DNA of 64,000 nucleotides, taken from contig JAVXUO010002835.1 in NCBI GenBank assembly GCA_033065855.1, positions 62,001-126,000 of the forward strand. Direction: 5' to 3'. This document shows, in pieces, positions 14,993 through 22,241 of this stretch (position 1 is the stretch's first letter; each line of letters begins with the position of its first letter). A program made the translations under genes and the position numbers. The notes beneath the pieces were generated by a model that was not told the DNA's origin, did not search any database, and worked only from the letters and a program-made list of their open reading frames with translations. The DNA is from Escallonia rubra. Taxonomy: Eukaryota; Streptophyta; Magnoliopsida; Escalloniales; Escalloniaceae.

Positions 14993-15088
14993 GCAAGTGG
15001 AGGAAATATCATGGCAGTGGACACTGCGTTTGTCGGCAGGGCAAGTGGAGGAAATATCATGGCAGTGGACACTGCGTTTGTCGGCAGG
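14993..15088. repeat. Perfect tandem duplication, 2 x 48 bp
   Basis: The unit at 14993-15040 (beginning GCAAGTGGAGGAAATATC) is repeated without any difference at 15041-15088. Because 48 is a multiple of three, open frames of 84 and 85 residues pass through it on both strands; neither resembles a known protein. Perfect identity implies a recent event. Confidence 0.92.
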
Positions 15089-15089
15089 G

Positions 15090-15206
15090 AAAGGAATAAG
15101 AGACTTGAATGCAATTCCCAGCAAAAGGTGCTTTAAGATTATAAAGCGTGGGAATAAGAGACTTGCATACAACTCCAACCAAACGGAGCTTTAAGAACAT
15201 AAAGCA
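15090..15206. repeat. Imperfect tandem duplication, about 58 bp unit
   Basis: GGAATAAGAGACTTG followed by a GCTTTAAGA..ATAAAGC block occurs at about 15092-15146 and again at about 15150-15207, with roughly ten differences. It adjoins the perfect 48-bp duplication. Confidence 0.7.
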
Positions 15207-17540
15207 TAGGTAATATACCCTTTCACTCTCTTCTCTGTATGTCACTAATTCTGGCTTCAGGGATTACAGCTATTATTATTATTATTTTCCAATACTATGT
15301 TAGTGACTGTGGGAGGTGAGTTTTTTGTTCCAACAAAAATGGAGAATTGTGCCAATTCTCCATTTCGGAGAGACGTAAGTGCTGATGTCATCTGAGGCTT
15401 GTGCTTGGAGTTATCAATTATTGTGCATTTGGTTCCAATTCTAGATTAGTTTGACATTGTAAGATGCTTATAACATCAAAGAATTGTGGTGCTTATGGAA
15501 TATTCAAAAGGATTGATTGTTTAATGGTAGAATGATTGAGCTATACTTTTGGGGTATGATGGGGTCAATAGGTGGTGGTTGAAATTTAACGCAAGAAGAG
15601 ATGATGAAAAGCTATAATGAAGCGCTGAAATTAAGAGATCAGGTGATAAGTCTGCTTAGTATTCGAAATAATGATGCTTTATAGATTTTTCTATATATAT
15701 GTGTGGCTCCATTTGCCATTTGAAAGTGAAGATGATTATTGTTGTTAGCATTTGTATTTTGAAGTAATGATGTTGAATGGATGTAGATGTTTTCTTATTT
15801 GTTTTTTCTCTGCTGTCAACTTTACTGTGGTTATTCGTAATTTCTCAAGGAACAATTTTTTTACTTTTAGACAGTTGTGACAACCCAAGAATATCTAATT
15901 TGTACGTAGTACGAAACTTATAGTGTGTTTGATAACGTCATTCAACACTTAAAATTGAAAATTTTCAGTGATTTCAAATTACGTCGTTTGGTAACGCATT
16001 TTTTTTACCACTTAAAATAATAAGTGATTGGTTAATTGAAGACTAATATTTCAAGTCACCCGTAGTGACTTATCACTTATCACTGAACAAGGTCAATGAT
16101 TTGGGATTAAAACATTTTGCCAATAAAGGACCAATTTGCCCAAGCCGCATCCTCTTCTTCCCGATCGTCTTCACCTGCTTGCTGCAGCGCTTCTTCTTCT
16201 TCTTCTTCCTGGCTGATTCGCTGCCTCTTCTTCTCTTCTCATGGTACTGCAGGTGCGTGATTTCATGGTGCTTCATTACATGGGTGTCGCTTGATCTGTG
16301 AACGTAATTAGGGCTTTTTTCTCAATATGTTCGTTCTGATATTGGATTGATTTTCCTGCTTCTTGAATGTATTATCAATTTAGTTTGCTTCACTGAATAC
16401 GAGAGAGGACAATTTACAGATCTACTGTTACTAAAAAAAATATAATGCAATCTAAAACCTAGGTACCACAGAATCGTATGAGCAAACAGGCTTTGCTTCA
16501 GTTCGGACATCTACCAAATCAACTTTGGGGGTGAAGTTCACACCCTTTGGTCCAAATAAGACCTCGCATTTAGCTACAAAATTCAGTTTCTGCCATGCAA
16601 TGCATATATTCGATCAAGTACTCGCCATGGGTACCTTGTATACAGTTGATGGCTACTTGGGATATATGCTGATCCAAAGGACCTTTAGGTAGAGGAAACT
16701 TGCTCATGACTCTTATTAATGCAAGGTTTAAGCAAGTTGTTATAACAATACGGATGTTTTTGGGAGCTTATAGGTGCGCGCAGTATGAAACCACCTATCT
16801 TCGTTTTGCATCTTATGTATGCAGGTGCCACACTACTTTTCTGTGCGGCGAAGGCTAAGTAGCTAAAATTCTTCGGTGCGGCTGTTGCAATTCTAAAGGT
16901 CAATTTTGGAAGGGTGAAGGTTGGATGTCTCTCATTTTCTGCTTGCAGCTTGGGTAATGGTTGCGGCCTTGTTCTTCCATTGAAGCGAGAACAAACTAAA
17001 CTTGGAAAGATAGAGAGGATTGGCAGGGTGGAAGAGCAATTTCTTCCCGAAGTGTCGCATAGTAATTATATTTGCTTATTCTCATCCTCGCATAGTGTTG
17101 TGATAGACTAGTTGCCAAAGTTGAACGGGGCCTTTCGCAACGTAATTCAAAGATTAGACAATAAAGGTGATTAATCAGGCTTTACTTGAGTAGTATTTGT
17201 GGAGATATTCAGTGAAGATGCATCCTTTTGACTAAGGCTGGTGGAAGCAAAGTCAAGGAGAAATATGGTGACCTAGTTATATTAGAAGTTGATGCTCATA
17301 TGAAGCAGTGCTCTGGAAATGGATGTCTGGAGTTTACTATGCAACAGCTTCTCAGTGGGAGAGGGGTGACGGGTGACGGCTTTAAGGAAAGCTAGATGGT
17401 TGATGAAACAGACTGGACACCATATTTATTGTATGATAAGTGTATAAAGAACAGCGATATCATTTTTTTATTATTGTTTCCCCTTTGAAAAATGTATAAG
17501 CAATATTTCATGTAAATCATACTACTACTGCTACTACTAC

Positions 17541-19624
17541 CAGGGGCGGAACTAGGCTTGTACGAGAGGGAGCTATAGCCCCCCCTGAGATTTTGAATTT
17601 TAAAAAATATATATATATAGTGTTTTATTTCATTTTCCACTTTTCCTTTCTCTCTCTTTCTCTCTCTCTCTCTCTCCTCCTCTCTCGGCCGGCTCTCACA
17701 ATCTCACTCTCACAGTCAGTCATCGACTCACCGGACAGGCGGACACCGGCTCACCGCCGACACCGCGGCACGCTGGCAGACGGCAGCTCTCCTCCTCTCT
17801 CGGGCTCTCGGCTCTCTCAGGCGTGGCGACGGTGGCGTCAATCAAGCTCTCACACTCACAGTTTCACGAGTCACCGGTCACGCCGGCTGCCGGCATCTCT
17901 CCTCCTCTCTCGCCAGTCGGCTCTCTCAGCCACTGAGCCACCGAGGCTCGCCGCACTCCGGCACCACCCACCGACCCGCGGTCACCGGTCGCCGTCCCCC
18001 GATTCCGAACTCCGAAGCGTGAAGCCAGTGATTGGTGAAGGCCTCCCCAGTCCGGCGGTCCCCACCCCAACTCCGACCAGTCCCCACCCAACTCCGGCGA
18101 CTCCGGCCAGATCAGATCTGGCAGATCTAAGTTCACCTCTAAGTTGGCCAGTCCCCACCCAACTCCGACGACGCCGTTCTGATTTATAAGGACTGAGGTC
18201 AGTGTGCATTTTGAACAATTTCTTTTGCTATTGAGAATTGATTAATAATTTTAGGTTGTTAGTTGTGTATTTGATAATTTAGATTATTAATTGATGCTTT
18301 ATGGATGTTAATCGTGCATTGAGCACTTAGATTTGAGATTGTTGATGGAGAATGGGACCCAATTGGATTTTATGCTGATTATATGTTGAGATTATTTTCA
18401 TGCTGATTATATGTTGTTAATTGTGCATTGAGCGTTTGAGAATTAAGATGATTGATGGAGGATGAGATCCAATTGGATTGAGATGTCGGATATGTGATTT
18501 AATTTGTCTTCGCTTTGGGGCCAAAAACCAACCTCGTCTCGTTTTCTTTTTTTCGAGGAAGAACTTACGTCCGATAAATCATTTTGTAATGCTGTGACCA
18601 ACTTCTCAAAGTGGTTCCGAGTCACAGAAGTCAGATGGACTAGTTTCCTCTGAAAATTAGCATAACCGACTATGTCAGTAGCTGAAATTTTCTCCATGAG
18701 ATTAGCTTGTACTTCCCCCTCTGCGCATTCATGAAGCTTTTCTAAAGCAGCAGCCTGACATTGCAAGAACTCAAACAGTTCTTTCTTGGCAGGTTCGTCT
18801 GCGGGTAGGTAGTATCCATAAGCATATGTCCACGTGAGAACCTGCCTACATTCAACTATCTGCAGCCACGCTTCTACAAGATATTCCAACTCTATCTCAA
18901 GTTTTCCCAAATTTTCGCTAATTTCCTTGATTTTGGTAGTTCGCATCTGATGCAAATCCGCTGCTGCTTTTTTTGTTGATGTTAGGTTGGCCTCCCAACG
19001 TTAAAAATAATGCGTGTATCTGTCCAAAGACTCCTTGGCTTTTTCTCTCCTCATCGTGGTTTCGTCCTTGTACACTCCCTCCTCGTAACCATTGCACCAA
19101 AAAGAGCTATTATGGTTTTGCCAAGAACCAAGACATATCTAGCAAAACTGATGCAAGCACGGAGGCCCGCACTTCATGTGATTGCAACCCTTATTTTTCT
19201 CGATGTTTCGCTTGCACTTGGGACAAGGCTTCGAATTTGCAAGAATCCAGTTCATGTTCTCAGACTCGTCGCTGTTTTTCCTTATCCACTTGGCCCTGGT
19301 ATCGCAGTCCACAGGACGATGGACTTCCTCAGTACAATTCCAACAAAAGCTATGTAAGCACAAGCAATTTATGTCATAAACTTCACTGCCAACTTCGTAT
19401 TCAACAGCAAAGTCGCAGCCTGGTGCAGGACACCATTTCACATTTTTGCTGTCTTCGACGTAAGACCTAACAATGTTATTAACATTGTTAGATGCTTTTT
19501 AGTATGTTTTGTGTATTATCGAAAAGTGCACTTTGTTTTTGTGTGCTATTTTACTTATAAAAATATTTATCTCTTTCGATATATTTTTAGCCCCCCCTGG
19601 GATGAAATCCTGGTTCCGCCACTG
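17541..19624 (-). mobile_element. CAGGGGCGGA-type DNA element carrying an ARIADNE gene fragment
   Basis: 2084 bp. The left end is CAGGGGCGGAACTAGGCTTG and the right end read from the minus strand is CAGTGGCGGAACCAGGATTT. A perfect 8-bp duplication ACTACTAC sits at 17533-17540 and 19625-19632. The 8-bp duplication suggests the hAT superfamily, but the family was not confirmed because no transposase is present. Inside are a CT-rich, then GC-rich, leader-like part (17640-18190) and a host E3-ligase fragment on the minus strand (18443-19472). Related ends occur at 31310-32647, 44029-44561 and about 39703. Confidence 0.85.
18443..19472 (-). pseudogene. Captured intronless ARIADNE-type RBR E3 ubiquitin ligase fragment
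   Basis: One continuous minus-strand reading frame covers the middle and C-terminal part of an ARIADNE protein. It holds the end of RING1 region ([18 protein letters not shown]), the IBR zinc residues ([18 protein letters not shown]), the RING2 core ([20 protein letters not shown]), and the ARIADNE helical domain (AWLQIVECRQVLTWTYAYGY, LTSVTRNHFEKLVTALQNDL). Two in-frame stops interrupt it: TAG at 19139-19141 where the family has a tryptophan after the RING2 FC, and TAA at 19001-19003. Otherwise the frame stays open for about 1 kb with no intron. The N-terminal RING1 half is absent. It lies inside a transposon, so it is a captured or retrocopied gene piece and not a working ligase. Confidence 0.88.
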
Positions 19625-19699
19625 ACTACTACTAATGCTATAGTATTTGTATAGGAATGGCTTGTGGTGACGGTTCTAGGAGAAACTAGAAGGATCCAT

Positions 19700-20970: not shown

Positions 20971-22241
20971 GGGATATTTGGACGAGATAATAAATGGAAA
21001 TCCTGCTCATTCTCAAGAGATTTTCCAGATGCCCAAACAAGCGTTTTTGAATATTTGTAACCACTTTCGCACTCAAGGGTGACTAAAGGATAGTCGTTAT
21101 GTTTCCATACGAGAGAAGATGACAATGTTCTTGGTAATTTTGAGCCATAACACAAGAACCTGTTTTGTCAAAAGAACATTCAACCATTCAACACATACCG
21201 TGCATAGATATTTTCACGAGGTGTTATCGGCGATGCTAAAATTTTCAAAGGAAATGATTGTTCCTACCATATATAATCTTAATGCCAATCAGATTCAGCA
21301 CCATCGTCGACTCAGACACGTGTTTCAGGTACAAATACAAAGTTAGATTTTGTTATAGTTTTCAATGTTATATTTTCTTATGTGAGCACGTAAATACTTA
21401 TAGATGTAATTTAGTATCCACTTGTAACTTATGTGGTTATATTTTTTTTTTTTATTAAGGTGCAGTGGGTGCATTAGACGGTACACTTATTCATGATGTC
21501 GTACCTCCTGATCAGCAAGTACTATATAGAGGAAGAGGAAGGGGTGAATCTTACCAAAATGTTCTAGCCGTATGCGACTTTAATATGGTTTTCACTTTTA
21601 TATGGGCTGGTTGGGAAGGAGTGGCACACGACTCAAGGGTGTTAACAGAAACTATGCGGGAACCTACTAATCATTTTCCATTTCCGCCCCCAAGTATTGA
21701 AATATGGTGCCTTATATGGTATTGAGATTCATTTTAAAACAATTACTAAATTGTTGAAATAAATAAATTTATTGCAGATAAGTACTATTTATGTGACGTT
21801 GCATATACACATACTCGTAGATTTATGGCACCTTATCGCAATGTGCGTTATTGGTTGACAGACTTTGCACATGGTCATCGTGCAAGAACAAAGGAGGAAT
21901 GATTTAACCATGCACGTGCTAGATTGAGAAATGTCATTGAGCGTTCATTTGGAGTCCTTAAGGCTTGTTTCCCAATATTGAAGAAGATGCCACCGTATCC
22001 TTTTCAAGTACAAAGGAATATTGTTATTACTTGTGCAACGGTACATAATTTTCTTCGAAAGACGATTATCCAAATTCTCTTTTTGAGCGATTTGACAATG
22101 GGGATATTCTTAAAAATATATACGGCTTAGCACGACGAAAATGCAGTAGATATGGGAGCGGAAGCACGACGAGCTGATCAAAACTTTATGGTGAACTTAC
22201 GGGAGCAGATCGCAACTCAATTGTTTAATTTGAGGTTGTAG
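20971..22241 (+). pseudogene. PIF/Harbinger DDE transposase (decayed)
   Basis: Three exons can be inferred, 20971-21328, 21460-21693 and 21778-about 22241, joined by GT..AG introns of about 131 and 84 bases. The N-terminal helical part reads NPAHSQEIFQMPKQAFLNIC. The nuclease core keeps the three expected acidic residues: D in GALDGTLIHD, D in GWEGVAHDSRVL, and E in RNVIERSFGVLK. The C-terminus reads MVNLREQIATQLFNLRL. Two in-frame TGA stops lie at 21080-21082 and 21900-21902, and the 5' part seems to sit in another frame before 20971. The catalytic triad survives although the gene is broken. A second reading frame near the C-terminus (22080-22180) suggests at least one further frameshift. 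Confidence 0.8.

Follow-up and report, generated by a model that had tools for sequence, protein, structure and literature searches.

A probable Pack-hAT element with a captured ARIADNE gene fragment in Escallonia rubra

The element, its family, and its surroundings

The window, i.e., the whole stretch of 64,000 nucleotides analyzed here (C2146:62001-126000), was compared with a genome of 566 Mb in 3,222 contigs. It contains an entire non-autonomous hAT element of 2,084 bp (17541-19624), whose terminal bases are CAGGGGCGGA (at 17541) and TCCGCCACTG (at 19624). The ends form the short terminal inverted repeats expected of hAT elements: the left one (17541-17553, plus strand, CAGGGGCGGAACT) agrees at 11 of 13 bases with the right one read inward from the opposite side (CAGTGGCGGAACC). 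Both flanks carry ACTACTAC as a perfect 8-bp target-site duplication (17533-17540 and 19625-19632), another hAT property, delimited by alignment and by empty sites in related repeats. Alone, this duplication would be weak evidence, because the sequence to the left is rich in CTA. The family to which the element belongs was taken from the best 40 of 3,055 genome candidates, which comprise one donor locus and 39 element loci (5 with ARIADNE (ARI) sequence and 34 without); both ends lie in the fetched stretch for 33 of the 39. Among these two-ended loci of the best 40 candidates, the 8-bp duplication is perfect in 27, while the others have 7/8 bases (four loci), 6/8 (one), or 1/8 (one, L061). The clean ends and perfect duplication of the original prediction are thus confirmed at 17541 and 19624, and recur in most relatives. 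The left arm (17541-18496, plus strand) is common to relatives devoid of ARI, and the right arm (19488-19624, plus strand) to these and to an autonomous-like copy. Between its ends, the window element has no transposase and carries a host gene fragment, as do Pack-TYPE elements.

Transposase-like sequence was found in relatives. Six loci have one end only, and in five of them (L049, L050, L051, L059, and L062), the left arm leads into long transposase-like frames; L059, the one of the five run against Pfam, matched DUF4371. One copy on C1870 (L051 together with L081) has the same two ends, 3,834 bp apart, and a duplication of AGTAACGG. It matches DUF4371 with 280.8 bits (cut-off 32.1) and Dimer_Tnp_hAT with 20.9 bits, just below the Pfam cut-off of 21.4. 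This hAT transposase frame is interrupted, hence the label autonomous-like. In such relatives, the left arm precedes the transposase frame and would correspond to a leader plus an intron. Judged from its sequence, a relative of the C1870 type points to the mobilizer of the family.

The captured ARI fragment lies on the minus strand and comprises IBR, RING2, and the beginning of the Ariadne domain; its true homology to the donor (C1201:104899-105881) spans 18497-19476. From 19504 to 18443, the minus strand reads as a single ARI frame with two internal stops (TAG at 19139-19141 and TAA at 19001-19003) and an additional stop at its extreme start, located in element sequence. About 1 kb of intronless ARIADNE coding DNA, in one frame but for two stops, had been announced, and this description holds for a coding stretch of about 980 bp. 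The first open piece (19139-19498, minus strand), which covers IBR and part of RING2 and ends with the TAG, matches Pfam IBR (1.1e-18) and IBR_1 (5e-12) and PDB chains of ARIH1 and ARIH2 (2.3e-24 for ARIH1). The second (18443-19000, minus strand) takes its final 17 codons and stop from the left arm and had no hit in Pfam at 0.01; the equivalent donor region falls within the Ariadne domain. The fragment starts at the IBR, with UBA and RING1 outside it, and the element holds no open frame combining UBA-like, RING1, IBR, RING2, and Ariadne domains, as an active ARIADNE E3 ligase would have. Devoid of UBA and RING1 and broken in all five of its copies, the ARI piece is most likely a decaying passenger. 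An RNA initiated in the left arm would run antisense to it.

When the flanks were joined without the element, 24 of the 40 matches listed ran across the site in related repeats, 14 had their start there or immediately before (query 252-261), and two were the window's own flanks. Two of the spanning repeats were aligned base by base as empty sites. The 14 matches that start at window 17533-17541 look as if a host repeat limit or a frequent break were located there. Farther to the left, 15000-15208 contains two short tandem duplications with units of 46 and 58 nt (98% and 81% alike). In the right flank, outside the element, pieces of a Harbinger-type transposase (Pfam DDE_Tnp_4, plus strand) occupy 21459-22130, with 21.8 and 25.1 bits for a Pfam cut-off of 24.8, i.e., one below and one just above it. 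The Harbinger genes said to surround the element were thus met as these pieces on its right, the side that the search covered. The suggestion of antisense RNA against Harbinger genes was dropped on geometry, because the minus-strand ARI frame is directed away from the DDE pieces.

The donor locus and the route of capture

Outside the elements, the closest match to the ARI fragment is C1201:104899-105881, with 96.6% identity. This donor segment lies in a single open frame of 640 codons (C1201:104205-106124, ATG at 104343) and is intronless, as far as the open frame shows. Three more single-frame ARI genes (552, 562, and 521 codons) stand in tandem with it, with 66.8-72.9% identity in DNA over the segment and 48-68% in protein, so that the array of four spans C1201:86937-106124. 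A one-base length difference from the copy on C898, near the C-terminal end, makes the donor frame the longer one. On C312 and C2551, the ARI segment is matched in separate short pieces, which suggests that intron-containing ARI genes are present as well. Neither the DNA search (best 40 of 3,055 candidates) nor the protein searches (all 89 and 33 candidates) revealed another close ARI gene in the assembly. In the accessible part of PMC3904995, AtARI3/4 and AtARI6 are described as intronless by retroposition. By analogy with these plant genes, the C1201 genes may have an old RNA-based origin, which the present capture does not need.

ARI sequence is found in five elements, and the protein searches, in which every candidate was scored (89/89 and 33/33), returned the identical five places. 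Each has its own perfect (8/8) duplication: ACTACTAC for the window copy on C2146, ACAACAAT for L002 on C2332, CTAATGGC for L003 on C2447, ATTCCATC for L004 on C2849, and GTCTTAAT for L046 on C898. The search for other elements with the same ends and contents, proposed along with the prediction, thus yielded four further copies; a donor elsewhere in the genome and five different duplications are again what Pack-TYPE elements show. The right junction is identical in all five. A 12-bp perfect inverted repeat (CTAACAATGTTA / TAACATTGTTAG, 19467-19491) spans it, with a filler at 19477-19487, which we take to resemble fold-back synthesis during end joining. Since all five copies have this junction with the same filler, a single capture event is likely. 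On the left, the four short copies (all but that of C898) join arm to ARI at the 5-bp microhomology ATTTA (18497-18501), whose bases are identical between ARI-less relatives and donor.

The C898 copy is a long form of 4,077 bp, collinear with C1201:104899-107177 apart from a nested insert of 750 bp and some small gaps. Its block extends about 1 kb beyond the end of the donor open frame (106124), the frame and not the transcript end being the reference point. The captured block therefore includes flanking donor DNA, which favors capture from DNA. The nested insert (L046:2024-2773) lies in this captured flank, has the ends CAGTGTTATAAAA...AACAACACTG with CACCCAAC on both sides, and is in part repeated at numerous genomic positions.

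The lack of an intron over some 980 bp had raised the question of whether the parent was an intronless ARI gene or RNA was involved, i.e., whether a reverse-transcribed ARI transcript was joined into the element. The split matches on C312 and C2551, where introns are presumed, would agree with the latter route. However, the closest gene has the whole segment in one open frame, so that there would have been no donor intron to remove; as far as such a frame shows, this is the single-exon parent that had been named as refuting the RNA explanation. The C898 copy also continues for about 1 kb past this frame into flank shared with C1201. A transcript tail would moreover be expected as a T-run at the left junction; such a trace of poly(A) 3' of the captured block was seen neither in the short copies nor where the C898 block begins on the left. 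As a variant of this route, a long read-through transcript that had escaped splicing might, with low probability, have been the template. We consider RNA-mediated capture highly improbable and rejected it on the single-frame gene and the donor flank within C898; an intronless parent, the other possibility offered, fits the 640-codon frame.

We thus read the window element, with a probability of about 0.93, as a Pack-hAT belonging to a hAT family in which fuller members contain a DUF4371/hAT-dimerization transposase frame, its interior being host DNA from the intronless ARI locus of C1201. The prediction of a DNA transposon with a captured ARI fragment is sustained by the ends, the 8-bp duplications, and the donor match. 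Such an element could have arisen from a DNA break in or near a hAT-family member, followed by repair. Repair synthesis would have copied genomic DNA of the C1201 locus, and the right side would have been sealed by the fold-back filler. The element then moved, as the five distinct duplications show, presumably in trans through the transposase of its relatives. In the four short copies, the donor 3' flank would have been lost at the 5-bp microhomology, or the ARI part re-copied.

Divergence and left arms of the ARI copies

The donor differs from the copies by about 3% (29 to 36 differences per 980-983 sites). Along the C898 block, divergence is uneven, with 1/150 in three bins and 20/150 and 26/149 at the far end. 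The ARI parts of the window copy and L004 differ at 8 of 980 sites. Stops or frameshifts affect all five copies. The four short ones have in common a TAA at codon 157, to which are added one further stop and a 3-bp deletion (window copy), one further stop (L002), two further stops plus an 8-bp and a 1-bp insertion (L003), or an 8-bp insertion (L004); the C898 copy is free of stops and carries a 1-bp insertion.

In the tree, the four short copies are grouped (support 97), and the five copies do not come together, that of C898 joining the donor (support 59). The sites readable with the outgroup are divided: four unite C898 with the donor, three the five copies, and three the donor with the short copies. 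The branches differ in the nature of their changes, counted without gapped sites and sites variable among the short copies. That of the short copies has 16 (10 synonymous, 5 non-synonymous, and 1 stop), that of C898 has 22 (3 synonymous and 19 non-synonymous), and that of the donor has 7, of which 3 are synonymous. The contrast in synonymous changes between short-copy and C898 branches gives a Fisher p of 0.0045, and the chance of at least 10/16 synonymous is 0.0002-0.004 depending on transition bias, both calculations being post hoc and based on few sites. Likewise, dN/dS of the donor is 0.15 against three short copies and 0.21 against the fourth, versus 0.73 against the C898 copy. These values suggest, for the ARI block of the short copies, descent from a version of ARI on which selection acted during part of that time.

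The ARI block common to the five copies sits beside three different left arms. The window copy, L002, and L003 have one type (95.8-96.8% identity, with noise over the initial 200 bases). L004 departs strongly from it in its first ~500 bases, and agrees in its left arm at 98.4% with L077, which has no ARI. The C898 arm is a third type: compared along its full length with the other arms aligned, it does not exceed 67% identity; it reaches 87% with the window copy over element 628-831, and 73-92% with another set of loci, in some over the full 818 bases and in others over parts. Exchange between family members during repair would be the likeliest origin of these differences. L004 thus appears as a mosaic element, with an L077-like arm and an ARI part nearly identical to that of the window element.

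One capture with plain copying thereafter would not account for the ~3% divergence, the uneven C898 block, and the differing left arms together. It is possible, though less likely than not, that the ARI part of the short copies was overwritten by, or separately copied from, a second functional version (a lost paralogue or allele), while C898 took the C1201 version and the common right junction was retained. The richness of the short-copy branch in synonymous changes compared with that of C898, the lower dN/dS of the donor against the short copies, and the exchange of left arms speak for these two sources. On the other hand, the test was post hoc on few sites, with gapped and short-copy-variable sites set aside; the above searches of the assembly yielded no other close ARI gene; and the common right junction favors one capture. 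The stop common to the four short copies also weighs against it, and implies that the final part of their branch was not under selection. It is possible, but doubtful, that the family re-samples host DNA, a second functional ARI version having been copied by repair after the first capture and the left arm exchanged with other family members to leave one block with three ends. To explain the many synonymous changes of the short-copy branch, selection within the transposon was set aside in favor of a second donor version, on 16 sites only. The fragment itself could have been kept by selection as a truncated ARI protein or a regulator, to which the dN/dS of 0.15 and 0.21 would lend some color. 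Such a function is very unlikely: the TAA is present in all four short copies, each with a further stop or frameshift, RING1 and UBA are missing, and the C898 copy combines a frameshift with a dN/dS of 0.73. We rejected it on the common stop and the C898 frameshift.

Comparable systems and other captured blocks

The transposase of the maize Ds2/Ds-l4 system is that of Ac, whereas the relatives described here carry a DUF4371 transposase. In the accessible text of Du et al. (2011; PMC3260210), maize Ds2 and Ds-l4 are non-autonomous hAT elements with gene fragments or intergenic DNA between their ends, as here; donors were located elsewhere for some of them, and gene capture by hAT elements is called rare. 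Capture from DNA was argued there through retained introns, while here the donor segment is intronless and the downstream flank provides the argument. The available part of Gisby and Catoni (2022; PMC8903248) counts Pack-hAT of maize and rice among Pack-TYPE elements, i.e., likewise multi-copy non-autonomous hAT elements with coding DNA (transduplication). Ours concerns another genome and gene, and its donor, long form, and family relatives were traced. For animals, the portions consulted of Tan et al. (2021; PMC8277862) report Pack-TIRs, such as the frog Pack-hAT-N8_XT, with microhomology at many breakpoints and spread to many copies through later transposition. Breakpoint microhomology and multi-copy spread after capture are found here too, in a plant and with a right junction that contains an inverted filler. 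A literature search on ARIADNE together with transposon capture gave no such report among its best matches.

Captures of genes by hAT elements are uncommon but already known, and the window element adds a well-traced case. A suspected RNA-mediated oddity becomes a capture explicable by DNA, for which a single genome shows the donor locus and the long form, the junctions, the copies that spread, and a relative coding for transposase. It teaches nothing new on ARIADNE function. The family, in which two or more different gene fragments occur and one block stands beside different left arms, could be used for testing how Pack-hATs are built by repair.

Other internal blocks were observed in the family. 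L070, L071, and L080 contain a different one of 0.8 kb, present at 18 distinct places (19 rows) with 90-100% identity, among which its source was not found. L061 (C1387:150936-153188), whose flanking 8-mers are the ones alike at 1/8, has the left arm and right terminus in common with the window element. It carries an 82-codon piece that gave no Pfam match above cut-off and that may be LEA/NHL-like. Over 80 residues, this piece shows 96% identity to a frame on C2367; clustered frames encode it on that contig, which accounts for 31 of its 38 matches.
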